Positions 10,344 to 37,193 of a stretch of 64,000 nt of DNA are shown piece by piece. The stretch lies in assembly GCA_022925895.1 (NCBI GenBank), contig JAKSYS010000107.1, positions 1 through 64,000 on the forward strand. The letters are read 5' to 3'. The stretch comes from Fragilaria crotonensis (taxonomy: Eukaryota > Bacillariophyta > Fragilariophyceae > Fragilariales > Fragilariaceae). Each line of letters begins with the position of its first letter. The first letter of the stretch is position 1. Position numbers and translations under genes: made by a program. The notes below the pieces were generated by a model. The model was not told the DNA's origin. It did no database searches and saw only the letters and a program-made list of their open reading frames with translations.

Positions 10344-12581
10344 TCACGTTGCATGCATTAGATGTTCGCGGAAATGGAAGAATTTCGCTCCAACCAGTGG
10401 TTTCGTCATGTAGTCCGCGATCATTGCATCCGTCGGACAGTATTCTATTTGAACTTCGTTGCGTTGGATCAAGTCGGTAATGTAGAAATACTTGATGTTG
10501 AAATGTCGAGTTCGCTTTCCTGAACTCGCTTTTCCGTTCTGTTCCAGCTTCATGGAACTCGTATTGTCCCTGTAGATTACGGTCGTTTTCACCTTGTGGC
10601 CTTGTGCCTCAATAAATAGCTTAGACCATAGGACCTTTGATATGACATCGTCCAGACCGACCAACTCCGCTTCAGTGGAGCTCCGCGACATAACCTTTTG
10701 TTTTGTTGACACCGAACTTAGAGTCCCTTCTCCGAGCGTCATAGTAGCTCCAGTATGGCTCTTGTAGTCCTTGTGCACTGCAAATGCCGCGTCGACGTAC
10801 CACTTGATAGATTGCGTATCGTCAGCTTTCATCGCAGTAACCTCGTCTCGAGTCTCCTTCAAGAACGTCAAGATCTTAATCAACTTCATCCAATCGCCTT
10901 CGTTCGGTTCACTCGTTCGCGTTGCGAGGAATGCAATACCGGGCTGGATATCCTGTCTCGCTCGTTTACAAAGGAACATACCTTTCATTACGAACGTATG
11001 GAAAATGCTCGCTCTCACGTCGTCTAACTTTTTAGATTTCGGGTCGACAGTAAACAACTTGTTTGTCCAAGGGAATGTACCGATGCCTTCAAGTTTCACG
11101 GGAAAATCATCGATCATCGCTTTGACGTAGTTCGTCATATCCACTTGTAACACTCCCGGACGAGAAAAATCTAGAACCATCGCTAGATAGTCATGCCGAT
11201 GTCCACGCACGGCTTTGACTTCTCCGATTTCGTCGGAGGCGTACTTCCACTTGAGCCATTCCAGAAACTCGTCGTTCACTTTCGGGTCTACGTGACTCGA
11301 CTTTAGGTCATCCACGTGCCAGGTAACGGTATGTTGCTTTCCGTTCACAATACGATTTGCAACACATGGATCGTACGGATTCACCTTGAATCCAATGGAC
11401 TCGATATCCTTGCGAAATTTCTTGTAATAGAGCAGCGACGATTGGAGCATTCCGTATAGAGCCTTCTCCATAACTACGTAGAGGACCTTGCTGTTACCTT
11501 CGTACACAACGTACGGCGCGTAAGTCTCTGGACTTAATTCCAATAGCATGTCGACCAACGGTCCACGAATCTTCATGATGATTCTCTCACCAACCTTCTT
11601 TTCATCGATGTCTGTCTGCACAAATGCGTTTGGGATGTCTGCCGTCATAACGTCACGACGTTGTTTCGCGTCAATCACTCCGGTGATGACTATAGACTCC
11701 GTCATTGCTGTCGGACTCGCTGCTTCGTCGCGATCCGTGTACTCTCGCTGAGTACTCCCATTTGCGCATGTTCGTCCCTTAATTGTGCCATCTCTCTTCT
11801 CCACCAAGAATATCAAACTCTCCATCGCGCGTCTTTTCTCTTGTTCTGTCAATTCTTCGACCTTAATGGGCCTGAAGACAACTCGGTCGTGAAGTTGCTT
11901 CATCTCTTTGTACGCAGCCTGTCTTCCTTTTTGGCCAAACTTCTTAAGGCCCTTCATCAGACTGTACGACTGCGTGAATTGATGTGCAGTCTTGCCCGTG
12001 GGATTCAAAAACATGTCGCTTATGCGAATCATTGTCATCGCAATCACTCGTGCACTCTCGTTGCTATACTCTTCTCGTATGCTGTGTGCCTGTACTAATG
12101 TCAACTTTGATGGAGGTCTCGAGGTTCTTCCTGACCTCGTCACTCTCACTGTTGCTCCTTCGTCCCGATCAGTGGTTGGATTGGCTTCTTCTGCAACCGA
12201 TTCTTGTTCTGGTTCTTCACTTTCGCTTTCTGATTCGTCGACATTATTGTTCTCTTCGGGATCTTCTTGTTGGACTTCTTGTAGCACTCCTGCATTATCG
12301 ACAGGTGGTCCTTCGTCGTCGTCGTCGTCGTCGTTATCAGACTCTAAATCGCCGACGTCCGTTGCATCGTCTTCTGGGTTGTCTCCGTCCTCTTCGCCGG
12401 GTTCTGTGATTTCTTCCTCCTCGTCATCATCTGCAAAATCTTCGTCGTCGAGATCGTCGTCGAACTGTTCGTCGTCGTAGTCCACTCCTGCAATCCAAGC
12501 ACTGTCGTAGAAAATCTGACCGGTTCGATTCTGAATCTTGAGACCTGTAGGCATATCGTCTTGCTCTGCAAGAGCGTGCAC
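10344..12581 (-). CDS. Copia Pol C-terminal part: reverse transcriptase and RNase H
   Basis: This part copies the element's RNA and removes the RNA strand. From the ATG at 12581 there is a long Asp/Glu-rich linker, then the RT domain starting near FRPIKVEELT, with FVQTDIDEKKVG and the catalytic WHVDDLK (about residue 418; the usual YVDD is HVDD here, as in diatom Copia elements). RNase H follows: KWYVDAAFAVH (about 595), STEAELVGLDD (about 633), YRDNTSSMKL (about 668) and RTRHFNIKYFYI, ending in DYMTKPL. The frame is open upstream of 12581 to at least 12791 (HCQYALGTYVQAHDEPKH), so this is not a separate gene: it is the rest of one Gag-Pol, displaced by one frame from the upstream ORF. Confidence 0.92.
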   Translation of the reverse strand: MHALAEQDDMPTGLKIQNRTGQIFYDSAWIAGVDYDDEQFDDDLDDEDFADDDEEEEITEPGEEDGDNPEDDATDVGDLESDNDDDDDDEGPPVDNAGVLQEVQQEDPEENNNVDESESESEEPEQESVAEEANPTTDRDEGATVRVTRSGRTSRPPSKLTLVQAHSIREEYSNESARVIAMTMIRISDMFLNPTGKTAHQFTQSYSLMKGLKKFGQKGRQAAYKEMKQLHDRVVFRPIKVEELTEQEKRRAMESLIFLVEKRDGTIKGRTCANGSTQREYTDRDEAASPTAMTESIVITGVIDAKQRRDVMTADIPNAFVQTDIDEKKVGERIIMKIRGPLVDMLLELSPETYAPYVVYEGNSKVLYVVMEKALYGMLQSSLLYYKKFRKDIESIGFKVNPYDPCVANRIVNGKQHTVTWHVDDLKSSHVDPKVNDEFLEWLKWKYASDEIGEVKAVRGHRHDYLAMVLDFSRPGVLQVDMTNYVKAMIDDFPVKLEGIGTFPWTNKLFTVDPKSKKLDDVRASIFHTFVMKGMFLCKRARQDIQPGIAFLATRTSEPNEGDWMKLIKILTFLKETRDEVTAMKADDTQSIKWYVDAAFAVHKDYKSHTGATMTLGEGTLSSVSTKQKVMSRSSTEAELVGLDDVISKVLWSKLFIEAQGHKVKTTVIYRDNTSSMKLEQNGKASSGKRTRHFNIKYFYITDLIQRNEVQIEYCPTDAMIADYMTKPLVGAKFFHFREHLMHAT

Positions 12582-12747
12582 TTGTTTGATAATCGCTGGA
12601 GTAATGGGGACAGGTGTTACCTTACGTCGCGTTATAACCGAATTCGTTTGTAGGTGAAGGAGTTCGTGTCCGCCTTGGACATTATCCGTGTATCTGAGAT
12701 AAATGCAGTCTAAACTGCGCGGTGCATTCGTACTGGAATGCTTCGGC

Positions 12748-15207
12748 TCATCGTGAGCCTGTACATAAGTCCCCAGTGCATACTGGCAATGGCGCGAGCG
12801 AGTAGTCCAGATTCCTCTGGTGCATTAACATACGCGGACTATAATACTGCGATACTCCGTTCTTTGCTGGAAAGAAATTCAGCTTCTTTGCTGATTCCGT
12901 AACCAGAATCTTGACAAGAGTTCTTGTCAAGTGACGATATGGCAAACGGTGATAAGTAGCGCGAACGCGTTCCTTGATTACGCGATTGTTCCGCTCTGCC
13001 TCTGGTACATGCTCCTGTGCATTGGCAAAGTTCATGCCGACGTTGAACTCGTCAGCAAGTGGTTCGATCAATGGACGAAACTCGTTGTCACATCGAATTG
13101 ACGTGATTCGAAATCCGCCAGCGTTGTAGATGCGAAAAGTCTGCCCAACCGCTGCCGTTTGGTGTTTCACATACTGTGCAGTTCGATACTGCAAGTTTTG
13201 CGACACCGTTGTAAGAAAAGAGAGTCCGTTGACCTTCATTCCGTCCATGTTGAGAGTCACTTCGCGTTGCGCGGCGATTAACTCTTTTGGAATCTCTACG
13301 TAGTCGTTAACGACTGGAGCTGGTTTGCGACGCGTAGTCTTACCTTTAAGTGCTCCTATATCGGGTCCAAATATCTTCTCGGCCACGATGATATCTTCCG
13401 TTGTCACTGGATTGTTCGTAATTGTGTTCATGCGTAGCATGGCCTTGAAATCCTTGATCGATGGCGTGCCAAGAGCGTGATAGAGGTCTCGAGCTCGCTT
13501 GGCTTTGTCAAACTGACGCTGCGTGTAGAACGTCTTATTTTCTTCGATCGTATTCAACAGCTGTACTCCCTTAATTGGAGGCTTGAAAACATACAAATTA
13601 TTTCCGCGTCTAGCGAATCGTACGGTCTTGTCGTCGCTCAGATGAACGACAAACGCATCTTCCTTTCCTGAATCGTATGTGATTCGGTAACGGTCAGCCA
13701 TTTCCGCATAGCTGATGATGTTCGTGATGGCCGATTCGTTGAACCATACTTCTCCCCACTGTGGGAGGTCGGCCTTCTTGTTTGTTACTAATACTCCGCC
13801 GTTAGTCGACAAATGCATGTTCCCATCGTTCGACTCCCGAATGTTCTGCACCAGGTCTTTATTGCAGAAGACACTGACGCTCGATTGATTATCTAACAGG
13901 ATCCAATTGCGCATTTCGTGCGCTTCAAATTGCTGGAACTGCATTTCAATATGGGCTCCTGCCCATCCAGTTGTGCTCGAGTTCGAGCTTGGCGGTGGCG
14001 TGCTGTTCGTTGTCGGTGTTGATACCACGCTTACGTCCGACACTGTTGCCTGCGCATGACTTTGTTGCGCTTTATTGATTGCCCATTTGTCCTTGGGCTT
14101 GTCTTTCTCGCGGCACGATGGCGACTTGTGTCCCGCTTTCCCACAGCAATAACACTTGCCCTCCAATTGGGCAAACGACAGATTAACCTCGTCGTCTTCC
14201 TTGTCGTCATCTTTCTTGTCTTTATTCTTATTACCGTCTGCCGAATTGTTCTTGTTCTTTCCACCAGACTTGTTGGGCATTGTATCGAACTTGTGGTTGC
14301 TTAGTACATTGTTTGACTCGGTGATGCTTTTTGGATATTGGTCGTTTCCCAGCGACTGTTGAGTGTTCAAACCAGCTAGGATTGATCCATACTTTGCCTT
14401 ATCGGCATTGTCAAGGTACATGAAAGCTAGTAACTGATTGTACGCTTGCTCTCGCATCTTCTCTTGCTTCTCTTCGTCTGCCTCATCATATCCCGACATG
14501 GCTTTCACAATTTTAGTCAAGACGATAGGCCCGCCGATATGTGACTTCAGCACATCTCTAGCTACGCGAAACCTCTTCGTGTAATCCTGCAGGCTTTCTC
14601 CCTCTTTCTGCTTCGTGCTCAATAGTGTTCGCAATGCGTCAAGCACAATCGACATTGAATATCTGTTTTCTTGATAATTCAACGCATGCTCCTTAATCGC
14701 TCTGAGTAGTAAAATCGGATTGTTCTTGATTGACTCGAAGTCTGATCTAGCCTCGATCTTGTTCTTCATGGCCTTTGCACATCGCTCCCAGAGTAATGCG
14801 TACGCTTTAGTCAGGTTATTCTCATACGTGTCCACACGCTTGCGATACGTATCGTAGTCTGACTTGAACTCAATTTTGAATTGTTCGTTCTCGTTCGCTC
14901 GAATTTCTTCATCACCGTCACTACTAACTTGCATACGTGGCTTCCATACCGACGTATCAATAGCTTCCAGATTTTCCAGAGCTGTTCCAATATCATTGCC
15001 GTAATCATACAGCTTCTTGATATGATTGATCAGAAACTCCGTCGTAGTCTCATAATCCGACGCTTGCTTCGCGGATCCAAGATAATAGCTGAAGTCCGTA
15101 ACAAATTGCTTGTGCTTGGTGGTACCAGTTGCATTGGAGTTACCGCCTTTCACTTGGGACTTGCCCTTACCTTGACCCTTCTTGATGAAGCGCCCTTTTC
15201 CACTCAT
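12748..15207 (-). CDS. Copia Gag, protease and integrase
   Basis: The protein is 819 codons from ATG 15207. The Gag N-terminus has the basic MSGKGRFIKKGQGKGK, a capsid-like helical part, and a CCHC zinc knuckle (CYCCGKAGHKSPSC, about residue 350) that packages RNA. A protease-like site follows, WILLDNQSSVSVF (about 434), where DNQS replaces the common D-S/T-G. The zinc-binding helix LYHALGTPSIKDF precedes the integrase core, with candidate catalytic acids in LNMDGMKVNG, IRCDNEF and HVPEAERNN. After LDYSLA the frame runs off into PLPVCTGDLCTGSR and stops; the homologous continuation lies in the frame of the RT ORF. The change falls in GCTCGCGCC near 12795 and would fit loss of one CG pair. A programmed shift at this place would be unusual. 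Confidence 0.92.
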   Translation of the reverse strand: MSGKGRFIKKGQGKGKSQVKGGNSNATGTTKHKQFVTDFSYYLGSAKQASDYETTTEFLINHIKKLYDYGNDIGTALENLEAIDTSVWKPRMQVSSDGDEEIRANENEQFKIEFKSDYDTYRKRVDTYENNLTKAYALLWERCAKAMKNKIEARSDFESIKNNPILLLRAIKEHALNYQENRYSMSIVLDALRTLLSTKQKEGESLQDYTKRFRVARDVLKSHIGGPIVLTKIVKAMSGYDEADEEKQEKMREQAYNQLLAFMYLDNADKAKYGSILAGLNTQQSLGNDQYPKSITESNNVLSNHKFDTMPNKSGGKNKNNSADGNKNKDKKDDDKEDDEVNLSFAQLEGKCYCCGKAGHKSPSCREKDKPKDKWAINKAQQSHAQATVSDVSVVSTPTTNSTPPPSSNSSTTGWAGAHIEMQFQQFEAHEMRNWILLDNQSSVSVFCNKDLVQNIRESNDGNMHLSTNGGVLVTNKKADLPQWGEVWFNESAITNIISYAEMADRYRITYDSGKEDAFVVHLSDDKTVRFARRGNNLYVFKPPIKGVQLLNTIEENKTFYTQRQFDKAKRARDLYHALGTPSIKDFKAMLRMNTITNNPVTTEDIIVAEKIFGPDIGALKGKTTRRKPAPVVNDYVEIPKELIAAQREVTLNMDGMKVNGLSFLTTVSQNLQYRTAQYVKHQTAAVGQTFRIYNAGGFRITSIRCDNEFRPLIEPLADEFNVGMNFANAQEHVPEAERNNRVIKERVRATYHRLPYRHLTRTLVKILVTESAKKLNFFPAKNGVSQYYSPRMLMHQRNLDYSLAPLPVCTGDLCTGSR

Positions 15208-22349: not shown

Positions 22350-23504
22350 TTACCTAGCTAAGTCATTTTGGAAGTACGGGTGCTGCAAAATTTCTTCCAC
22401 CAAAATCCGATTCTCCGGGTCGACCTGAAGCATCTGGCAGAGAAGGTCACGTTGATCGTCCGTCAACCTCTGAACCACAGGTAGCAATTTCACTTCTCGG
22501 AAGTAGTCCGCTGGAAAACCGGGACGATTCAAGTAACCGTCGAAGTTACGTTGGCGGGCCTCCGCAAGACCATTGCCATTAATGTAGTATTGCCAACACC
22601 TGTCGCCAGGTATTTCATAGAGGTGTTGCCCCCTGAACTCATGCCTGTTCTCGGACTCGTTGTTTTTCCATTCCCCTGTGAAGACGTAAAAGAAAATGCA
22701 ACCTAGTGCCCACACATCAACCCCGAAGTCCAATGGAGTGCTGCAATAAACCTCCGGGCTCATGTACGGGAACTTTCCGCAGAGATTCTGCGGTTCTATA
22801 CGAAACGCAATGCCTTCGTTTCGCTGGCATCGAAGGGCCATAGCAAAATCAATTAGAAGACATACCCTCCCACCCGACGCAAAGTCCACAATGATGTTTT
22901 CGAGCGATAGGTCACGATGAATGACATTATTCTCTTTCAGGTAAATCAAATCCTTGACCAATGCTCGAGTGAATTGCATCTCATCGAATGCAAGTCTATT
23001 TTGATCCAGCGCATCATTATCAACGATAAACGTTTCATAGAAATCAAAACCCAGGTGCGGCATGACAATGTACTTGAACGAACGATCCTCCAGAACTTCG
23101 ATGATTCGATGAACGTGCTCGTCATCTTCCAGCAATGTGGCGGCCGCGATCTCGGTCTCCACATTTTCAGAGACGTTAGGGTTTCTCCGAATCCAGTCTT
23201 TGGAAAGCTTCTTGATAACGACGTAGTCCTCGTTAAATCGATATCGTCCATCACCCCCACGAACGTACTTCGCTCCTGTGAGTATGGATCGCCTGCCATC
23301 TTTGGTCTCACCGTAGGAGGGCTTTCCAAAATAAGTGTATGCGAACTCATGATCGGCATCGGCACGACGTAGGTAACCTTTAATCATCCTACCATCTTGA
23401 TCGAGGAATTCAAAATGTTTTTCGGCCTGGTAGACTTGCGTTGGATTGTCGAAAGGCACAGGTGCACACGTTGGATTGTCGAAAGGTGCCACATGGTTAT
23501 TCAT
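22350..23504 (-). CDS. Protein kinase-like protein, copy 1
   Basis: The protein has 384 residues from ATG 23504. A Ser/Thr-type kinase fold is visible: beta-3 lysine in YVVIKKLSKDW, probable alpha-C glutamate in ETEIAAATLLEDDEH, catalytic loop HRDLSLENI, metal-binding motif DFA (not DFG), MSPEV at the APE position, DVWALGCIFFYVF in helix F, and the ending ILQHPYF. No clear glycine-rich loop is seen; the corresponding place reads LTGAKYVRGGDGRYRF. The HRD Asp, the Asn and the DFA Asp are all present, so activity is possible. There is no signal peptide or membrane segment. The gene is convergent with the PHD gene, and two paralogues of similar length follow at 25357 and 28441. The substrate is unknown. 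Confidence 0.85.
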   Translation of the reverse strand: MNNHVAPFDNPTCAPVPFDNPTQVYQAEKHFEFLDQDGRMIKGYLRRADADHEFAYTYFGKPSYGETKDGRRSILTGAKYVRGGDGRYRFNEDYVVIKKLSKDWIRRNPNVSENVETEIAAATLLEDDEHVHRIIEVLEDRSFKYIVMPHLGFDFYETFIVDNDALDQNRLAFDEMQFTRALVKDLIYLKENNVIHRDLSLENIIVDFASGGRVCLLIDFAMALRCQRNEGIAFRIEPQNLCGKFPYMSPEVYCSTPLDFGVDVWALGCIFFYVFTGEWKNNESENRHEFRGQHLYEIPGDRCWQYYINGNGLAEARQRNFDGYLNRPGFPADYFREVKLLPVVQRLTDDQRDLLCQMLQVDPENRILVEEILQHPYFQNDLAR

Positions 23505-24431
23505 TCGTCCAAAGTGAGCAAGATGGAGAATTTATGAGAACATGAATGAGATCTGATCGGCAAGGTATAGGCCTGGTACTGAAGTACGAATACGAATTTC
23601 AACCGATGGATGACGTGAATGTCAACAAATCTAAACCTCGCGTTTGTCGTCTTGATCGTGAAATATGTTCTGACACGATCGAATTCTTGAGCTTTGATCC
23701 TGGCTCGTTACTCCGGACTCGCAACAGCCTTAAGACTCTCCGAGCTCCAACGTTTGTCAGTCATGATGAATCTCTTGCTCCAACTTTGGGACCTCCAAAT
23801 GGATACAATCCGAACGTGGTGGCACGAATGACGATGGGTGCCACTTTCGTATCTATCTATCCATATCTTATATGTACAAAACGAGCACTCGAACTCTGCT
23901 GTCTACTGCAGATTGGATCTTCACCCGCGCCTGGAGGCAATGTGACTGCATGACGTATGACTATGAGAATGCTTCAGGATGTATACAGCAACGATACATA
24001 CCTTTTAAATGTCAATGTATTCATGGATGTACTTGATATATCACTATATCACCTAAGAACAGACTCGGTACTCATTTATGCGTTGTTTTTACGTGTTAGA
24101 ATTCCTCCGGGGTCCGGACTCCGGACTACTGGAAAGAATAAAATCCTGTTTGGTTGACATGAAATTGCATCAAAGGCAAACCTTGGATCGGCTCCATAGA
24201 AATGAAAGAGAGGTTGTATTTTAACTTTAAACCCTCGTTTTGCTGTTCGTCAGGACTATGTTCTGAATTCTGACACGAGAATTCTCGAGGAATTTTCTGT
24301 TCTACGGTTACTATAGCTCCCGATTGCCGAGCTCCTATTCCGATTCCAAGTGCGCGTGAATAATGAATTGCCATGCTTGCCGTGGACTGAGGCGCTGATA
24401 TCGTCGGTTAGGAACGGTCGCAGCGAATACC
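23505..24431. other. Spacer of the duplicated PHD-kinase unit
   Basis: The stretch holds kinase-upstream sequence (about 23600-23810) repeated at 26540-26790 and 29630-29860, and a second block (about 24105-24350) repeated at 30175-30410. The first block includes GAGCTTTGATCCTGG and AAGACTCTCCGAGCTCCA; the second includes TTACTATAGCTCCCGA. No gene is supported. Confidence 0.6.
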
Positions 24432-24729
24432 AAGCTGAAGATGACCTTCAACGACATTGTGGTATTTATCGAAAACATTCAGTGGATGGATGAAGACTCA
24501 AGACAGCTGATTGAGGTCCTGCTTCATCTCCAAGAGCCTTCGAGGATCGTGATCATTTTGGAGCAACGAAGAATCTGCAAGTGGTGCTGAATTATTGGAT
24601 GGAATCAAGATTACTGAAGACACGTTGGATGTACCACTGGATAATCTCGAGACCGACGCTGTTCTAGAGCTCATCTCTAGCAAGATTGATGCTGCAACAA
24701 AAAGCATGTTTGAAGAACCCATTCGTTGA
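24432..24729 (+). pseudogene. Fragment of an AAA/STAND-type ATPase (Walker B part)
   Basis: The frame reads RLKMTF-like context, then IVVFIENIQWMDEDS, a Walker B strand with the hhhhEDxQWxD pattern of the large ATPase-TPR family (COG3899-like). After a frame change near 24555 it continues SNEESASGAELL and LDNLETDAVLELISSKI, the expected following region, and stops at 24727-24729. It is closer to the general family than to the four copies at 40-64 kb, whose Walker B reads FEDMHWACPE. It is a truncated relic joined to the decayed PHD tail. Confidence 0.6.
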
Positions 24730-24750
24730 CGACCATTGCCAATGTGAGCT

Positions 24751-25276
24751 CGACGACTCTGGGCAACTTGGACATTTGTTGGAAGAGGATGATGACGAAG
24801 AAGAAAATGATACTTTGATCCAAATGGAACGACGAAAGCTCGCAACGACCACGACGCCGACGATTGGGCGTCAGGAACTAAATGCTTCTTATCGGGAGGA
24901 GAATCCAGCACCAACGAAGACGAAACACAGACCGAAGTTGGCATGAACAGCGGTAACAACACAGGCAGAGATGACGATACTGGCAATTGCGACGCGAGCA
25001 CAGGCGAAAACCACAGGGAGGCCCAAAAAGCGAAATGAAGGTGCAGAAGACGGTTCTACACACTGATGTTGTTAGGAAGCGTACGGCTGGCCAGAAAAGA
25101 ATGCAGTCAAAAAAGGCAACACCTATCCGTAAGCCTCGTCAAGACAACCAGCGACCTCGTTCGGCATCGAGAAGAAAGTCATGGTGCCTCGAAAATCCAA
25201 ACGACCTGCTGCTGTCGTGGCAACCGGAAAGTAGCGCCGTCCCCCGGTGAAGCTACTAAAGACTAGGAAGAGGTAG
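24751..25276 (+). pseudogene. Decayed 3' part of the PHD-finger gene, copy 2
   Basis: This stretch aligns with the acidic and basic C-terminal coding part of the PHD gene (from about 21361). The first 50 bases, encoding DDSGQLGHLLEED, are almost identical, followed by deletions and frame changes; the end preserves the TAGGAAGAGGTAG stop context. No PHD finger is left. It faces kinase copy 2, repeating the arrangement at 22.3 kb. Confidence 0.85.
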
Positions 25277-25356
25277 GTGCGCTGGATGTCATCAATAATT
25301 GGCCTTGTAGTAGACCATATTACTTTATTTAACTACTAGCAATGGCAGTAAGGATC

Positions 25357-26472
25357 TTATTGGAAGTATGGGTGTTGCAAAATATCTCCTGCGGCGATGC
25401 GATTCGCCGGGTCTATCTGCAGCATCTTGGATAGTAAATCACGTTGAACGTCGGACAAGCTCTGAACCAAAGGTAGCATTCCCGCGGCGCGGACGTAGTC
25501 CATTGGAAGATTGGGAATATTCATGTAACCGTCGATGTTGAGTTGGTGGGCTTCTGCAATACCGTTGCCTTCAATGTAGACTTGCCAACACCTATCGCCA
25601 GGTATTTCATAGAGGTGTTCTCCCCTGAACTCATGCCTGTTCGCGGACTCGTTGTGTATCCATTCCCCTGTGAAGACGTAAAAGAAGATGCAACCGAGCG
25701 CCCAGACATCAACCCCGCAGTCCAGTGGGGTCCCGCGACAAACCTCCGGGCTCATGTACTTGACCTTCCCGCAGGGATTCTGCGGATCTATGCGAAACGC
25801 AATGCCTTGATATCGTAGACATCGAAGGGCCATGGCAAAATCAATAAGAAGGCATATCCTTCCACCCGACGCAATGTCCACTATGATGTTTTCGAAAGAT
25901 ATGTCACGATGGACGACATCTCTTTCTCTCAGGTAAATCAAATCGTTAACCATTGCTCGAGTGAATTGCATCTCATCGAATACAAGTCTATTTTGATCCG
26001 GCGTATCATTATCAACGATGAACGTATCATAGAAATCATAACCCAGGAACGGCATGACAATGTATTTGAACGATTGATCCTCCAGAACTTCGATGAGTCT
26101 GTGCACATGCTCATTATCTCCCAGCCATGCGGCGGCCGCGATCTCGGTCTCCACATTTTCAGGATGATTAGGGTTTCTCTGAATCCAGTCTCTAGAAAGC
26201 TTCTTGATGATTACATATTGATTGGTAAAACGATATCGTCCTTCGCCCTCACGGACATACTTCGCTCCCTTGAGTATGGATCGCCTGCCATCTGGGGAGT
26301 CACCGTGGGAGGCCTTTTTAAAATATGTGTATGCGAACTCATGATCGGCATCGGCACAGCGTAGGTAACCTTCAATGGTCCTACCATCCTGATCGAAGAA
26401 TTCAAAATTTCGTTCGGCCTGGTTGACTTGCGTTGGATTCTCGAAGGGAACAGGGGGGAAATTGATATCCAT
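25357..26472 (-). CDS. Protein kinase-like protein, copy 2
   Basis: I chose the start at ATG 26472 (MDINFPPVPFENP), giving 371 residues. The upstream open extension to 26526 has only a TTG. Motifs are as in copy 1: YVIIKKLSRDW, HRDISFENI, IDFAMALRC (DFA), KYMSPEV, DVWALGCIFFYVF and ILQHPYFQ. The frame has no breaks although the neighbouring PHD copy is decayed, so the kinase has probably been kept by selection. Family-specific positions such as ALRC after DFA and the FTGEW segment are conserved. The substrate is unknown. Confidence 0.85.
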   Translation of the reverse strand: MDINFPPVPFENPTQVNQAERNFEFFDQDGRTIEGYLRCADADHEFAYTYFKKASHGDSPDGRRSILKGAKYVREGEGRYRFTNQYVIIKKLSRDWIQRNPNHPENVETEIAAAAWLGDNEHVHRLIEVLEDQSFKYIVMPFLGYDFYDTFIVDNDTPDQNRLVFDEMQFTRAMVNDLIYLRERDVVHRDISFENIIVDIASGGRICLLIDFAMALRCLRYQGIAFRIDPQNPCGKVKYMSPEVCRGTPLDCGVDVWALGCIFFYVFTGEWIHNESANRHEFRGEHLYEIPGDRCWQVYIEGNGIAEAHQLNIDGYMNIPNLPMDYVRAAGMLPLVQSLSDVQRDLLSKMLQIDPANRIAAGDILQHPYFQ

Positions 26473-27120
26473 TTTTCCAGAGAAATGATCAGAATTGATC
26501 GACAAAATATAGTCCTGATACTGCAAGAATACGAAATTAAACCAACGGATGACGTGAATGTCAACAAATCTATAAACCTTTGCGTTTGTCGTCTTGGTCG
26601 TGAAAATGTTCTGACGCGCGTCGATTTCTTGAGCTTTAATCCTGGTTCGTTATTCTGGATTCGCAACACCTCAAGACTCTCCGAGCTCCAAAGTTTCTCG
26701 CTTATGAAGTGATTTGATGTGATTGATGTGATTAGACTAGTCGCTCCAAACTTCGGACTTCCAAATGCAATCAGAACGCGTTGGCACGTTGGTAAACGAT
26801 GGGAGACGGGACAGACTCTCTACTGGTACAAGTACTATCGTTCATACGACGTACTTGTACTCGTCGGACTTCAGCAAGTCCAAGTAGCACATTACTGTCC
26901 AATGCACGCATTGCACATACACATGGCAGATGGTACGGCGGATAAGGTGTTCACTCGCACGAAGAGTGATGAGCCTGTGCGTTTGTGAATCTGTGAGTCT
27001 GCGCGCCAATTCTTGGATTCTATCATATGATCGGGTTATTCGGACATGCTGACAGGCGTACAAGGCATGCTACTAGTAGTAGTGCACCCGTGCACCCGAA
27101 CCAGTAGTAGAGATCACTCT
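26473..27120. other. Spacer between kinase copy 2 and the 21-bp-array element
   Basis: The stretch contains kinase-upstream homology (about 26540-26790) and GTAC words (26820-26880). I see no gene. Confidence 0.5.
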
Positions 27121-27277
27121 TCTACAGGAAGGTCCGGCCATACCTAGGGAATCGTGAATCAGACGAAAACACGTGATACCCTGGAGGTGAAAATCGCTTC
27201 CATTCTGAGTCGTGGTGACGCAACGTGAAGCATAGGCTGGCGCTATTATCATGTGCGTGACGCAAAGTGAAAATTTG

Positions 27278-27413
27278 CTGACGGTCAGTGAAAAATTGCT
27301 GACGGTCAGTAAAAAATTGCTGACGGTCAGCAAAAATTTGCTTATGGTCAGTAAAAAATTGCTGACGGTCAGTAAAAATTTGCTGACGGTCAAGAGAAAT
27401 TACTGACGTAAGA
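27278..27413. repeat. 21-bp array, left half (A-rich spacers)
   Basis: CTGACGGTCAG or variants start at 27278, 27299, 27320, 27341 (CTTATGGTCAG), 27362, 27383 and about 27403. Spacing is 21 bases except the last step. Spacers are of the TRAAAAATTG type, placing an A-tract every 21 bases on the plus strand. Confidence 0.95.
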
Positions 27414-27459
27414 ACATACTATGTGTCCACGAAAACTTCTTAAAGACAAATCAGATTTT

Positions 27460-27575
27460 CTGACGGTCAGCAATTATTTACTGACGGTCAGTGATTTTTT
27501 GCTGACGGTCAGTAAATATTTACTGTCGGTCAGCAATTTTTTACTGACGGTCAGCAATTTTTTACTTACGAAGAG
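27460..27575. repeat. 21-bp array, right half (mainly T-rich spacers)
   Basis: The same 11-base core starts at 27460, 27481, 27502, 27523 (CTGTCGGTCAG), 27544 and, degenerate, 27565, again every 21 bases. Most spacers are of the CAATTTTTTA type, mirroring the left array, yet the central base of the core is G on the plus strand in both halves, so this is not a simple inversion. Confidence 0.95.
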
Positions 27576-27716
27576 AAAACCTTGCCGGCTCGTTTGCTTC
27601 GACCAATGGAGCTACAAATCTCGCAATACATACAAATGGGAAGATCCCTGACGCATATCTGACGACGGTCATAAACTTAACGGCTGAAACGTGCTTGGGC
27701 CGGACCTTCCAGTAGA

Positions 27717-27892
27717 TCAAAGTTGCAAGTCGCTACTAAGTACTACTAGATGATTTACGTAACAACACGTTCCTAAGAGTCAATTTCTAGACATGGCAGA
27801 TTTGCCAAACTTGCAGGGGGATCACCGGATATGGACCAAGCAAAGTAGTAACATAGAAATGCAGTGGTGGCAATGACGTCGCTGGTGTAAAT
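27717..27892. other. Short spacer
   Basis: This is sequence between the TIR element and the third PHD remnant. Nothing is recognisable. Confidence 0.4.
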
Positions 27893-28360
27893 TTGATTTG
27901 CGCCTTGTTGAAATGACAGCATGTCGGGGAGATTTTTTTCGGCTACAAATGGCTCGAACATGAATAATGGCGGGGAGTCCTCAGATGCAAGCCATGACAA
28001 AATGAGCCGCAGTGGTAACAACACGGACAGAGAGACGACAATGCTAATCATGCCGACGAGAGCACGTGCTGTGCGAGAAGTCAAGAAATTCGGACCTGCA
28101 GCTACAGGATGGGCCGAAAAGGGACGAAGGTCCTAATTATTAGGGTTGTTAGCAAGAGTAGGGCTGGGCTGAACAAGAACGAAAAACAGTCGAAAAAGCA
28201 ACACCCATCGATAAGTCTCTTAACGACAAGTCAGAGACCACGATCAGCATAGAGAAGAAACCTCAAGGTCCCTCTAAAATTCATACGATCTGCTACTGTT
28301 GTGGCAACCGGATAGCAGCGCCGTTCCCCGGTAAACCGGTTCAAGACTAGGAAGACGTAG
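27893..28360 (+). pseudogene. Decayed 3' part of the PHD-finger gene, copy 3
   Basis: The stretch begins with a match to the PHD gene around its IDYALLNDSMFGG codons (parent near 21768). It keeps GGGGAGTCCTCAGATGC-like Ser/Asp coding sequence and the Lys-rich 3' end, finishing in ACTAGGAAGACGTAGG. It has large internal deletions and frame breaks and no finger domain. It is convergent with kinase copy 3. Confidence 0.8.
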
Positions 28361-28440
28361 GTGCGTTGGTTGTCATATAATTGGCCAATTAGTAGACCGT
28401 AATGCAATATTTAACTAGTAGCAAAATTTCAGTGCAGATC

Positions 28441-29541
28441 TTATTGGAAATATGGGTGTTGCAAAATATCTTCCGCCGCGATTCGATTCGCCGGATTTAG
28501 GTGCAACATCTGGCAGAGAAGGTCACGTTGAACGTCGGACAAGCTCTGAACCACAGGTAGCAATTTCACGACACGAATGTAGTCCGTTGGAATATCGTCA
28601 TCATTCACGTACTGGTCGAAGTTGCGTTGGCGGGCTTCCGCAAGACCGTTGCCTTCAAGGTAGTATTCCCAACACCTGTCGCCAGGCATGTCATACAGGT
28701 GTATTCCTCTGAACTCGTCCCTCGCCAGGTATCCCATTGTGAAGATATAAAAGAAGACGCAACCGAGAGCCCAGACATCGACCCCAAAGTCCAATGGAGC
28801 CATGAACCAAACTTCGGGGCTCATGTATCTCAGCTTCCCACAGGGCGGCACCTGCGGAATAATGCGAAACACATTGCCATCGTATTCCGCACACCGGAGG
28901 GACATGGCGAAATCAATGAGAAGACATATGCGTCCTTGCGATGCAATGTGCACAATGATGTTTTCGAGAGATATGTCACGATGGATGACACGGTGTTGTT
29001 TGATGTAAATCAAGTCGTTTGCCATGGCTCGAGTGAAGGCTCGTGTGAATTGCACCATATCAGTAGGCCTGCGATGCGCGAACGTATCCAAGACATCAAG
29101 ACCCAGGGAGGGCATGACGATGTAAAGGAACTGTCGATCCTCCAGAACTTCTATGATTCGATGTACGTGCTCATCATCTTCCAGCAGTGTGGCAGCCGCG
29201 AGCTCCGTCCGCACATTTTCAGGATGGTGAGGGTTTCTCCGAATCCACTCCTTGGAAAGCTTCTTGATGACAACATATTCGTTGGTAAAGCGATATCGTC
29301 CGTCACCCTCGGGGACGTATTTCGCCCCGGTGAGTATGGTCCGCCTGCCATCTCGGGATCTCCCGTGGGAGGGCTTCCCAAAGGATGTGTAAGCGAACGG
29401 ATGATCGGCATGGGCTCGGCGCAGGTACCCTTCAATGGTGTTATTGTCTTGATCGATGAATTCAAAATGTCGTTCGGCCGGGAAGACTTGCGGTGGAATC
29501 TCGAAGGGTCGAGGTGGAAAAGGGATCGCCTGCATCGCCAT
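28441..29541 (-). CDS. Protein kinase-like protein, copy 3
   Basis: The protein has 366 residues from ATG 29541 (MAMQAIPFPPRPFEI). Motifs are YVVIKKLSKEW, HRDISLENI, IDFAMSLRC (DFA), RYMSPEV, DVWALGCVFFYIF and ILQHPYFQ. Compared with copies 1 and 2 it has lost part of the segment between the hinge and the catalytic loop (LDVLDTFAHRRPTDM) and part of the FTGEW insert. The frame is intact. It has the same probable kinase fold and the same lack of a clear glycine-rich loop. Confidence 0.85.
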   Translation of the reverse strand: MAMQAIPFPPRPFEIPPQVFPAERHFEFIDQDNNTIEGYLRRAHADHPFAYTSFGKPSHGRSRDGRRTILTGAKYVPEGDGRYRFTNEYVVIKKLSKEWIRRNPHHPENVRTELAAATLLEDDEHVHRIIEVLEDRQFLYIVMPSLGLDVLDTFAHRRPTDMVQFTRAFTRAMANDLIYIKQHRVIHRDISLENIIVHIASQGRICLLIDFAMSLRCAEYDGNVFRIIPQVPPCGKLRYMSPEVWFMAPLDFGVDVWALGCVFFYIFTMGYLARDEFRGIHLYDMPGDRCWEYYLEGNGLAEARQRNFDQYVNDDDIPTDYIRVVKLLPVVQSLSDVQRDLLCQMLHLNPANRIAAEDILQHPYFQ

Positions 29542-32588: not shown

Positions 32589-33155
32589 TGTTGAGGTTAA
32601 CTTCTGGCGGGCTCCAAACTTGAAGCAAGTTGTTTCGGTTTGAAGGGTGGAGTTGTTAGTGTTGGGTCGATGCCATGGAATGGGTGTGGTTGCACTGACA
32701 TCTGTCCGTGTCAACAAGTGAAAGATCCAAAGATATGCCTGTCGTATGTCAAATAACGATTTCTACACAGGGTCGTTGATATCATACGGCATACGCACGT
32801 CAACAAACGACGAATCATCGGAGGGTATGTAGTATGTAGTATGTAGCACTGGTACGGACTTGGCGCTCGGAGCTCGGAGTGCTATGGCTTGTTTCGCTTC
32901 GTAGCAAAATATAGTGCAACTCGTGTAGGATCAGTACAAAATCCGTGACGTCTTCGTTTTATGCCAGGGGATGGCAGCCTCGCACATCGAAACAAGACGA
33001 TCGAAACCACACCAAAAAAAGTTGTTCGGACCATGATATTGTAACGACAACTTCACCAACTTACACTTCGTAACTGCCGAGCCTTTTGTTGCGACTGGAT
33101 CAATAATATACTTCAAGGCAGAGTTTAACTTGCGAGGGTCGGCAGTTGAGACATA
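32589..33155. other. Intergenic between divergent genes
   Basis: This is the upstream region of the transaldolase gene and the left flank of the transposase pseudogene. GTATGTAGTATGTAGTATGTAG near 32825 is a short tandem repeat. I could not identify a terminal inverted repeat for the transposon. Confidence 0.45.
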
Positions 33156-36100
33156 ATGAAGACGCTCGCAACGTATTATCAGTGTTGGCTTGAAATCACC
33201 AAGCAACAACGATACCGAGACAAATGGCTGTCAGACGAACTCTATTTCCGTGCAATCAATGCCCAGTTTCCAACTCTCAAGGCCCTTGGATTCGATAGAG
33301 GCATGTTGAACAAAGCAATTTCATCATGCGAAGGCGCAACACTTGATGACTTCACAGAATTGAATGATACTGGCCGATTCCGGAGGTCAGCCAAAGGCCT
33401 TGATATCTTCGGCAATCCAAAACGAAAGATCTGGGGATACTACGTAACAGATCCCGGAGGATTGGTCGAACGTCCGCCAGATGGAAAGAAATGTTTCTTG
33501 TCTCTGTTGCAAGACGCAGGAATAAATGATCGCTATAGTGTGGCACGTGGTTCATCGGAAATTGTGGATCTGACGACGGAAATTCATATCCAATCGAGAG
33601 CAAAGAGGAAAGCTGAAGCAGGTGCAGCTGTTGCGGCACAATCTCCTGGTAGTCAGAAGAAAGCAAAGGCTTCTCAACTTGCTTCTGGATCTGATTCGGC
33701 AATTATCTCGGTAGAGAGCTACTGGGACAGTCCGGAGGCAAAAAAGCTCTTCCTTGGGAGCTCAACCGACAACCGAAGCGTTGTTGATGTTCTTCAGCAA
33801 CGTATAGAAAGGCTGCAGCAAGTCAATAGAAGTCCTGACGGGTGGAGAGACCTCATTGATAAGCATGATGTAGACAATCTCTGTTCTCCGTATGATATCT
33901 TCATAATACGACAGCGATGCTCCATTCTTTGCTTAGCATATATCATGGCCTTGGAGGAGATGAACTCTGCTCGGTGGGTAGAAGATTGCTGCTCCCAGGC
34001 TGTCTATGATAGCAATAGGATGGGCATTGAAGCCGCAACCAGCAAGCTTACAGTTGCAGGCTGGAATATCCTACTGCGAGCGAATCGCGAGCACTTTCCG
34101 TTACCAGACCCGAAGATACATAAACAAAAGAAACCACTCCCTGATCTTCTAGAGTACTTCCGTGAAGAAATCACATTACCATGGATTGACTACTGTATTG
34201 GAAGCCTTGCTGACCTAACAGTGGAATCGGCACGTAACGAGCTGATCACTAAGATAATTCCTAACTATTGTTCGCAGGTGAATGACGATGACACGGAGGA
34301 GAATGCAACAAACGAGAACGGTGAATCTAGTACTACAATTAAAGACTGCTGCCCACTCCTTCAGACGTATCTAGATTCTCCTATCTCATTGACGACAACC
34401 TGGCGATGGCTTCGACGTCTCGGCTTTCATTACGACAGTCGCAAGAAATCCTTCTTTGTTGATGGGCATGAGAGACCCAATGTCGTATTCCACCGGAACG
34501 AGTTCTGCACGAAATACCTATCGAAGCTTGAACCTCGAACCCATCGATGGATTCAAGTGAGAAGAGAAACTGTGGAAAAGTGGAAGTCAGAGAAAAGAAT
34601 TTCAGACGACGTCGGAGGTCAAGGATATTCTTACCAAGAGCAGCCTTCGGGCAAAGAAATGATTGAATTCCACGTGGACGATTTTGATTTTCTTCATTCG
34701 GTTGCGGAGGAAATGGGCTTTGGTATGTTTGGAGGGAACCTCAGCGTTCGCAAGCCGCTAGGTCTGAAACCACTGATGATCTTCGGCCAAGATGAAAGCG
34801 TGTTCAACCAGTTTCTGCTCAAATCACGCCAATGGGTTGGGCCACTAGGTCAACGTCCACTTTTGCCAAAGACGGACGGAATGAGCCTCATGCTCTCCGC
34901 AATTCAATCGCGTGAAACCGGATTCGGAGTTCCGATCAGTCGGATTCAGATGGAAGAAATAAATGAGACTCGTCGTGGTCATAACTATGTTGACCTTGAT
35001 GCAGCGATTGCAGTTCATGGCCAAGTGTCCAAGAAAGACCTGGAAGAATCGCCATTTGTTGTGAGTTTCGAATTGGGAGCAAACAACGAAGGGTATTGGA
35101 CTTACAATCACATGAGCATGCAGTTTGAGGACTGCGTCGACTGCATCAAAGTTATATACCCCCAATTTGACTTCGTTTTCTGTTTGATCATTCGCAGGGA
35201 CATTCAAAGAAATTGACGGGCGGTCTAGATGCTTACAGTATGAATAGAAGCTATGGAGGAGCACAACCAATAATGCGTGAGTCAAAAATAAAGGAACACG
35301 ATGGGTACCTCGGGATGCATGCTGCACGAACCTTAAACGTTGGCGACACACAATCTTTTGTGTTTACCTCGGAGGATGATGGTCCATTCTGGATGTCACC
35401 ACAAGAACGGGAACTTAACCGTGATGACCGCATACTCCCATCTCCGGCAGGCATTCCGCGAATGCGAAACAAAACCATCGCTGAACTCAAATCGGAGCTC
35501 GCTCCACTCAATATCTTGAGCAATCGCCGCCAATATCGCCTGACCGAATTACAACAGATTGCAAGGGATAACAATTTGGATCCAAAAGTGGAAAGGACAA
35601 GGGAGAAAAAGGTTGGTTAGGCCAGCCGAAAGGTCTCATGCAAGTCCTTTGGGAGCGAGGATGGATAGATGAAGGCAATATTGACAAGTATACAATGGAT
35701 ATTGCGAAGGACAAGAATGATGGTGAAGATATGGAGGATGCCGAAAATTGGAGCTTAAAATATCTGATGGCATCGTGTCTTGACTTTGCTGAAGAGATGA
35801 CAGCGTTGCAGCATGTGGGACATGCACTTGGAGTTTCGGTCCTCATCACTCAAAGTTCCACGCCGAAATGGCCGGCGAGGGAATTGAATACAGTTGGGGT
35901 GTCGAAGAGTGTCTACCGCAAAATGCCACTGGATTCTAAAGGGAAAGACATCTTTCAAGGCGTTAGTGAAAGAATGTACAAGCAGAGATGTCCTCAAAAC
36001 AGTGACAGTGCGAAAGCTTTCGACGGGCACGATCATACATATGTGCATACTTTGTCCTTCATCAACAAAACCTGAACAGTTGCGAGGACAGTATTCCTAC

Positions 36101-36263
36101 AGCACTCACCTTGCCTCGGATTGAACGCGTCAGGAAGGAATTCAAAACCCACCGAGCTGTAGTTGACTTTGATGCTGGCTTTGTGCAAAGCTTTGTCTCG
36201 CCTGCAATAGAGGACGTTGTTCTGATGGCAGCAAAGAATGAAACGCCAGCAGCAGGAGTATAA
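33156..36263 (+). pseudogene. Large DDE transposase (IS630/Tc1-like superfamily), copy 1
   Basis: The first 686 codons from ATG 33156 are intact; the gene then continues through several frames to a stop at 36261-36263. Order: an N-terminal helix-turn-helix-like part; TTTWRWLRRLGFHYDSRKK and FFVDGHERPNVV, characteristic of a transposase family common in fungi and other eukaryotes; first catalytic Asp in FGQDESVF (about residue 545); second Asp in LFDHSQGHSKK, reached after a 1-base loss near 35180; a helical, SAP-like insert (IAELKSELAPLN, LTELQQIARDNN); GQPKGLMQVLWERGW, reached after a break near 35608; the third acid in GIEYSWG near 35895; and a C-terminus RRARSYICAY to KFKTHRAVVDF-type sequence. 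At least four frame breaks make it non-functional as given. Terminal repeats were not found. Confidence 0.8.
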
Positions 36264-37193
36264 CGTCTGAGACGCTATCGGTACTTTCGGAAATGCAAGA
36301 CCGATAAAGACGAATCTGTTCAACGTGCAGCTCACCTTCAATTATTCTCGTTGCTTCTTCATCGTTTCGGCCTCGTAGTGCAAATAGATGCGAATGAAAC
36401 AGATTGTCGAAGATATAGATTTATGGATCATACCGAATTCTTGTTCTATTTTGAGGAGACTGCCGGAGGATTGGAGGCAGTTTCTCAGTTCAACTAAAAT
36501 TTTAGAATACTGAGTCTACGTGCTCCTACCATATATTGCCTCATGGTGAAACAAGCCATACCGGTACTGAAATAGAAGTTACTGTACTACCAAAATCTAC
36601 GGTACCACAGCCTATGTCATATGCACTATGCACTCGGTTATTCGTCATCTTGTTTGTCATTCAGCTACCGTACTTGTACTCCAGTGGGTCAACCGCAACC
36701 CATCCAGTACCGGTAAAGCCAAAGCGTTCGTTTTGGTATGAATACTGCATCTATGTGCATACCTTGTACGAGTACTGTATGTACAGTACCAGCCACAACG
36801 ACGTAAACATATGTCATACATACAGGAGAGTTGCCCACAATGACGTTGCAATGACCAATGTGACGATGTCATATGACCCCTGAGAATGTGCCATGTCATA
36901 GTATATGAGTACCGTTCGTAGTCAGTAGACAGTAGTACTCAGTACGCACTGCCTACAGGATACTACAAGTACTCTACTCCGGAGTACTACACAGAAAATG
37001 ACATGCCGGTCCTTGTACCGGTACTTGTACATGTTGCACCGCAGTATACTAGATGCACTGAACACAATTGAGAAGACGGGTATGAGCATGGCATTTGGCA
37101 TCATCATTTTCATCCTTTCCGCCACATCAACAACAAGAGCAGCAACAACATAATTATCATCATCAGTATCATCAACAACAAACTGAATTAATA
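36264..37193. other. Intergenic, very GTAC-rich
   Basis: A dense run of GTAC, TACCGGTAC and AGTACT words lies at about 36540-37050, including the 12-base palindrome TACTCCGGAGTA near 36975. It lies upstream of the coiled-coil gene and is probably its promoter. No gene is supported. Confidence 0.5.

Follow-up and report, generated by a model that had tools for sequence, protein, structure and literature searches.

A multi-copy non-coding DNA transposon carrying two blocks of 21-bp-spaced near-palindromes, and sister subfamilies with re-spelled arrays

The stretch of DNA analysed here (64,000 nucleotides, hereafter the window) contains a 582-bp element that is almost certainly a MITE, that is, a multi-copy, non-coding DNA transposon. 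The element, assigned to subfamily A, occupies positions 27128–27709 on the forward strand, and its interior carries two blocks of near-palindromes that recur at a step of exactly 21 bp. A new finding is that relatives sharing its terminal inverted repeat (TIR) carry arrays that are spelled differently and yet keep the same two-block layout. The genome searched comprises 62.1 Mb in 881 contigs, and the window lies on contig C13.

Ends, copies and insertion sites

The element is bounded by a perfect 12-bp TIR, with GAAGGTCCGGCC at 27128–27139 and GGCCGGACCTTC at 27698–27709, and is flanked on both ends by the target-site duplication CAG (27125–27127 and 27710–27712). An earlier note on this DNA had proposed a TIR of 19 bp; the longer match resolves into the 12-bp repeat, the CAG on each side and chance matches in the flanks. 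No open reading frame of 150 or more amino acids overlaps 27128–27709, and a search of 26000–29000 against Rfam gave no match at the gathering score.

Genome-wide, the 14-mer AGGAAGGTCCGGCC was found 207 + 208 times with at most one mismatch, compared with 6 + 1 for a reversed control, and this count far exceeds what subfamily A needs. The 596-bp stretch of the window gave at least 85 genome matches when used as a query (40 of 117 candidates scored). Thirty loci were fetched, and 27 of these, the window copy included, hold near-full-length copies of subfamily A, a number that is a lower bound; the remaining three are one piece at a contig end and the two halves of a split copy. Identity of the other near-full-length copies to the window copy ranges from 75 to 98%. 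Both ends could be recognised in 21 of the 27 copies, with lengths of 478–586 bp, while the finder used did not recognise one end in the other six. The earlier note had named a single copy without TIR-sharing relatives as the outcome that would speak against mobility, and the search returned instead the 27 copies and the hundreds of TIR-like sites given above.

The flanks of these insertions are highly regular. In subfamily A, identical 3-bp flanks are seen in 19 of 21 copies (18 with CAG or CTG and one with CCG), the unequal ones being L055 and L057. Fifteen of 18 copies in sister subfamily B have identical 3-bp duplications of the form CWG, and the other three combine CTG at one end with CAG at the opposite end; for subfamily C the flanks are identical in 17 of 20 (16 CWG and one CCG), with two CTG/CAG and one CGG/CAG among the unequal. 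CWG is present on both sides in 18 of 21, 18 of 18 and 18 of 20 copies of A, B and C, respectively. Pooling the three subfamilies where both ends were read, identical duplications number 51 of 59 and CWG on both sides 54 of 59, with 49 of those 54 identical; CWG accounts for 3% of trinucleotides in the window. Such a pairing of CTG with CAG across one insertion, found in 5 of the 54 (L077, L078, L093 and two of L100–L119), seems more frequent than point mutation would give in the young subfamily C.

Two pairs of A copies, L036/L043 and L042/L048, have common flanks and look like two haplotypes of one insertion each, so that the 21 copies are not all independent. The members of each pair differ in length (583/571 and 583/572 bp) and in core spacing, differences that may reflect either haplotypes or homopolymer errors in the assembly.

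Empty sites were sought by joining 65 bp from each flank for 16 of the A copies and searching the genome with the resulting constructs (40 of 127 candidates scored). The construct from L032 matched C295:58900–59029 over 130 of 130 bp at 100% identity and with a single CTG, an exact empty site that is perhaps the other haplotype. Junction-spanning matches were also returned for L044 and L050, at 96% and 89%, and correspond to repeated or diverged sites; L044 sits in a repeat for which several more diverged empty copies exist. Among the candidates scored, the other 13 of 16 constructs, including that of the window copy, gave no junction-spanning match. Taken with the copies, the TIR and the target-site duplications, the exact empty site lends strong support to the proposal of the earlier note that the array is carried on a mobile element, the extent of which is 582 bp.

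The arrays of subfamily A and of its relatives

Eleven cores matching CTGACGGTCAG with at most two mismatches lie between 27278 and 27554 of the window, and eight of the 11 are exact. The left block (27278–27393) comprises six cores with A-rich spacers, starting at 27278, 27299, 27320, 27341, 27362 and 27383, and the right block (27460–27554) comprises five with T-rich spacers, starting at 27460, 27481, 27502, 27523 and 27544. The step from core to core is exactly 21 bp throughout each block, as the earlier note had described for at least eleven near-palindromes. Self-identity at lag 21 is 0.83 in the left block and 0.84 in the right, against 0.40 and 0.49 for the next-best lag when lag 42 is set aside, and Tandem Repeats Finder reports period 21 in both blocks, with 6.0 and 5.5 copies. 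The genome search for the core at 21-bp spacing that the note had advised returned 93 exact pairs CTGACGGTCAG-N10-CTGACGGTCAG (38 + 55), compared with none for a reversed control pattern. Just past the last core of the right block stands a lone half-site CTTAC (27565–27569), spelled as in subfamilies B1 and C, and a sub-terminal stretch of 71 bp (27560–27630) is shared at 80% identity with a B1 copy.

The spacer TAAAAAATTG of the left block appears as CAATTTTTTA in the right block, and most of the spacer sequence on the right reverse-complements that on the left; arms of 112 nt in the window copy are 83% complementary. Contrary to the earlier note, the right block is largely an inverted copy of the left, and the inversion is broken by the base at the core centre alone. 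Both blocks have a G there on one and the same strand, in 164 of 166 cores from the 21 copies of subfamily A as counted by a core finder that undercounts (in the window copy it detected 8 of 11). The simplest account that we infer for the same-strand G is a single change of the centre base in one arm, predating expansion of the blocks.

Sister subfamily B was identified from 20 TIR pairs picked by eye among 100 of the 415 TIR sites and 100 of the 131 sites in a second list. All 20 pairs enclose tandem arrays; the period given by Tandem Repeats Finder is 21 in 19 of them, and L089 is irregular. Subfamily B consists of 18 of these copies, with L089 (a composite) and L096 (a nested insertion) left out. 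Its members have the two-block layout, and their flanking stretches are 68–85% identical to those of A where they can be aligned. Ten of the 18 (B1) carry mainly CACTTAC/GTAAGTG palindromes in 21-bp units GTAAGTGGAATTCCACTTAC, and eight (B2) carry mainly CACTTC/GAAGTG palindromes in 21-bp units GAAGTGGAATTCCACTTC. Among 100 units of B, the 20-bp unit is followed by C 71 times, by G 18 times, by T nine times and by A twice. The two-block layout of palindromes at 21 bp is common to A, B1 and B2 without exception in the sample.

Subfamily C was first met beside a transposase on contig C179, where the TIR element is a 589-bp C copy. The 40 relatives of this copy that were scored, from 162 candidates, are 97–100% identical to it, and 69 C-type left ends occur in the genome with at most two mismatches. 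Mean pairwise identity among 20 sampled copies is 98.8%. The majority sequence has TTTGCTTAC-like sites that are irregularly spaced, with 16 CTKAC in one direction and two GTMAG; the steps between these half-sites are mostly 13–22 bp, and the sites form two blocks flanking a middle stretch. L097 and L100–L119 belong to this subfamily, for which at least 41 copies at 97% identity or above are present among the candidates scored. Both L089 and the outer part of a locus on contig C228 resemble C. The subfamily is a recent amplification burst with no coding source visible. That the layout is retained in relatives despite the re-spelling points to some importance of these rows for the element, which may use them to dock a protein.

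Half-sites, phasing and folding

The half-site CTKAC (reverse complement GTMAG) is common to A, B1 and C and is largely missing from B2. The mean number of CTKAC plus GTMAG per element is 21.9 in A (n = 21), 11.7 in B (n = 18, range 2–22) and 18.5 in C (n = 2), compared with about 2–2.6 in dinucleotide shuffles (1.9 for A and 2.6 for C); these counts are inflated by the repeats and therefore indicate presence, not independent origin. Ten of the 18 B copies have at least eight such half-sites and the eight B2 copies have only 2–6, and the idea of one half-site common to every subfamily was dropped for this reason. The unit of A can be written G-GTCAG-TAAAAAATTG-CTGAC and that of B1 G-GTAAG-TGGAATTCCA-CTTAC. 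Between these two, half-site positions coincide in 9 of 11 cases and spacer positions in 3 of 10 (one-sided p = 0.024, from one comparison of consensus units); between A and B2-type units the figures are 6 or 7 of 11 and 3 of 10 (p = 0.24 or 0.13).

In an alignment of the 21 A copies, between-copy difference is 0.037 in the cores, 0.090 in the spacers, 0.073 in the flanks and 0.059 in the middle. With columns treated as independent, permutation gives p = 0.0007 for cores versus spacers and 0.0013 for cores versus flanks, values that overstate the significance because common descent links the copies, two pairs of which sit at shared insertion sites. The lower divergence of the cores could alternatively be caused by homogenisation of the repeat units. 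Subfamily C, which is very young, shows no such slowdown (half-sites 0.0102, rest of the array 0.0107, flanks 0.0143). For the protein-binding array envisaged in the earlier note, the slow cores of A and the half-site in A, B1 and C are favourable, and the B2 copies, mostly lacking that half-site, are not; that the array is a cluster of protein-binding sites is, judged from these sequence patterns, an evenly balanced proposition.

It is also possible, though somewhat doubtful, that the array is a by-product without binding function: a small satellite produced by slippage or unequal exchange of palindromic units, the period of which was simply inherited. Gain or loss of whole units would predict the inter-block step of 77 or 98 bp (77 + 21) seen in 16 of 21 copies, and would fit a period of 21 common to the flank-alignable A, B1 and B2, among which spelling nevertheless drifts and CTKAC is lost in B2. 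The equal variability of half-site and other array columns in C points the same way. Such an origin does not readily explain why the cores of A change half as fast as spacers and flanks, or why the half-site is kept in C, which has no regular unit, and in B1, where the spacers are unlike those of A.

The earlier note held that every site faces the same side of the helix. This stands inside a block, where 21 bp is two turns, and fails between blocks: across the inter-block stretch of the window copy (27394–27459), the core-to-core step from 27383 to 27460 is 77 bp, or 7.33 turns at 10.5 bp per turn. Over the 21 A copies this step is 77 bp in nine, 98 in seven, and 76, 78, 95, 119 and 121 in one each; steps of 77 and 98 bp each leave the blocks one third of a turn off register, and phasing over the whole array was for this reason discarded. 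Within-block steps of 19, 20 and 22 bp are also seen in some A copies. Per kb, subfamily A has 21.8 tracts of four or more A or T, subfamily B has 10.5 and subfamily C has 22.1; with half the density of A in subfamily B, curvature through A-tracts, which the earlier note had predicted, is not supported as a general principle. With two blocks that are not in register, irregular spacing in C and few A-tracts in B, helical phasing is not general and is unlikely to be an essential principle.

Long inverted arms built from repeats are present in one A and one B1 copy examined for folding as single-stranded DNA and are weaker in a C copy. The folding energy lies far below that of shuffles for the window element (z = -11.7) and the B1 copy (z = -19.5), and less so for the C copy (z = -4.9); in each case none of 100 shuffles folded as well. 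Selection could conceivably act on this fold-back itself, as a long imperfect hairpin extruded as a DNA cruciform or transcribed into double-stranded RNA that feeds small-RNA silencing, and the 83% complementarity of the 112-nt arms, together with the fact that A, B1 and B2 have palindromes in common and not one fixed half-site, would accord with this. We consider it improbable, given that it is the copy of the young and numerous C that folds less, that 16 of 18 half-sites in the C consensus point in the same direction and that in A any pairing between cores of the two arms would leave a G-G mismatch at the centre.

Likewise improbable is a role in gene control, in which a transcription or chromatin factor of the host would bind the array and genes close by would gain a portable enhancer, silencer or anchor. 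The window copy does lie about 650 bp upstream of a minus-strand frame (25357–26472) that by eye resembles the kinase-like frame at 22350–23504, but the spelling of the array differs among subfamilies within one genome. The two frames and a third at 28441–29541, also on the minus strand, are alike by eye, and the MITE is located between two of them. The frame at 22350–23504, the only one of the three compared with Pkinase, matched that family; the frames of 22350–29541 are probably tandem kinase-like paralogues.

The coding partner and known systems

Harbinger-type transposases are plentiful in the genome, with at least 150 matches to DDE_Tnp_4 (150 of 333 candidates scored). None of these could be tied to the TIRs described here among the loci fetched and the TIR sites listed, and no autonomous element was found among the 100 of 415 and 100 of 131 TIR sites and the C-type ends with at most two mismatches. 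The coding candidates that were met are nested insertions or an unrelated neighbouring gene. On C228, both MITE ends and their CAG duplications enclose a 439-aa DDE_Tnp_4 reading frame; this frame belongs to a different element, with a 52-bp inverted repeat and a TAA duplication, nested in a C-type copy. The nested transposon (L061 and L063, C228:25150–31400) carries the DDE_Tnp_4 frame together with a 662-aa minus-strand frame, and by eye a further TIR-like insert adjoins it. Beside six relatives of its transposase (C301, C603, C109, C246, C807 and C394) there is no pair of the present TIRs in the flanks fetched, which end at the contig end for C603; for C447 one side was fetched. On C164, a TIR lies about 4 kb from a broken transposase, and the 4.8 kb fetched contains no second end with at most two mismatches. 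The transposase on C179 is a mere neighbour of the 589-bp C copy. Pairs of C ends at intermediate length (about 1.2–1.4 kb) exist, and the one fetched (C218, L099) is an interrupted C copy.

The C-type ends on C270 are 4.27 kb apart; the additional 3.7 kb between them belongs to another transposon, with 99.65% identity to window 32883–36561. This 3.7-kb DNA transposon has the ends GCTTGTTTC/GAAACAAGC; its relative on C270 corresponds to L098 83–3758 and is flanked by TATG at both sides where it has inserted into the C-type MITE. Its 686-aa protein (33156–35216) gave no Pfam match, and the element may have been active recently with an undescribed transposase. A 365-aa frame at 52099–53196 is by eye a diverged relative of that protein and likewise has no match in Pfam. 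Elsewhere in the window, frames of a Copia-type retroelement lie on the minus strand at 10344–15207, with an RVT_2 match in the first and none in the second.

We propose that the element is a non-coding, cut-and-paste MITE of the PHIS superfamily, NuwaI-like by its CWG target, that would be moved by a transposase acting in trans. Recognition in A, B1 and C would act on the half-site CTKAC, set in A and B1 as two half-sites head to head, which makes a near-palindrome around one base, and used singly in C; B2 would present the re-spelled palindrome CACTTC/GAAGTG. The likely binder would be a Myb/SANT-type DNA-binding partner required beside the transposase, or else a host factor; by repeating its sites the element would increase occupancy locally and draw the transposase to its ends. 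The regular spacing could have arisen when one 21-bp unit was duplicated in tandem and its copies were then homogenised; a step of two helical turns keeps neighbours within a block in phase, which may help without being essential. The copies, ends, target duplications, empty site and sister subfamilies with a common TIR and layout are observed features of this account. As a whole, a NuwaI-like MITE moved in trans with its blocks as clusters of binding sites may equally well prove right or wrong. Counting against it are arrays that begin about 150 bp inside the ends, a TIR that starts with GAA and not with the GGG usual for NuwaI, the scarcity of CTKAC/GTMAG in the eight B2 copies among 18 of B, and the lack of a coding element among the loci and TIR sites covered.

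A more speculative extension, which we regard as rather unlikely, is that these MITEs spread by means of a multiplied docking platform, two blocks of repeated half-sites with which they would outdo the autonomous element in capturing the protein that binds DNA for a PHIS transposase. The successive re-spellings (palindromes of CTGAC, of CTTAC and of CACTTC, and the single TTTGCTTAC sites) would then track a changing partner while the layout is kept. How a MITE outcompetes its parent for the proteins of transposition is the question that these subfamilies address. Within one genome, the same ends and layout occur with different spelling and spacing of sites, including those of the very young C at 98.8% mean identity, and provide a natural series in which sites, palindromic form and helical phase can be set against mobility.

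Assignment to a NuwaI-like group of the PHIS (PIF/Harbinger-like) superfamily is probable on sequence grounds, since the CWG duplication fits that branch. In the relevant part of the survey that describes it, NuwaI is a group of PHIS (PIF/Harbinger-ISL2EU-Spy) defined by CWG duplications, taken from animals only, with TIRs of 12–61 bp that usually start with GGG, and its authors state that MITEs could be missed (PMC4482050). The present element is alike in its 3-bp CWG duplication with an empty site and in a 12-bp TIR that falls inside this range; it differs in being non-coding, in the GAA start and in its two-block palindrome arrays. As CWG is palindromic, the exact boundary is ambiguous, and the start would be GGA with the boundary moved outward by one base. 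A diatom, Thalassiosira pseudonana, is known to have Harbinger-like elements (PMC2806351), and if the host is an alga, as its Copia-type retroelement and the style of its genes suggest, the present elements may extend CWG-targeting PHIS beyond animals.

Movement of PIF/Harbinger type requires a separate Myb-like protein for DNA binding (PMC2836001). The Tourist-type MITEs typified by mPing/Ping are similar to the present element in being short and non-coding with TIRs and a 3-bp duplication, and mobilisation in trans would be expected here too; the duplication of mPing is TAA in place of CWG, and the parts of that article that treat mPing and Ping mention no large internal palindrome arrays (PMC2836001). 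When CTGACGGTCAG, GAAGGTCCGGCC and GTAAGTGGAATTCCACTTAC were searched as literature text, the matches listed were only papers unrelated by title, and the titles and abstract openings on internal repeats of MITEs and on Harbinger elements in diatoms, from journals other than subscription ones, described no such arrays.

The FB foldback elements of Drosophila have inverted arms of short tandem repeats around a middle stretch. The present element likewise has repeat-built inverted arms flanking a middle, but its repeats lie in the interior, with short TIRs about 150 bp away, and the half-sites of C are mainly in direct orientation. Maize En/Spm and Ac carry multiple sub-terminal motifs that bind transposase, and are comparable in that a short motif recurs many times in each half of the element; a difference is that the motifs of A and B described here are near-palindromes with an exact period.
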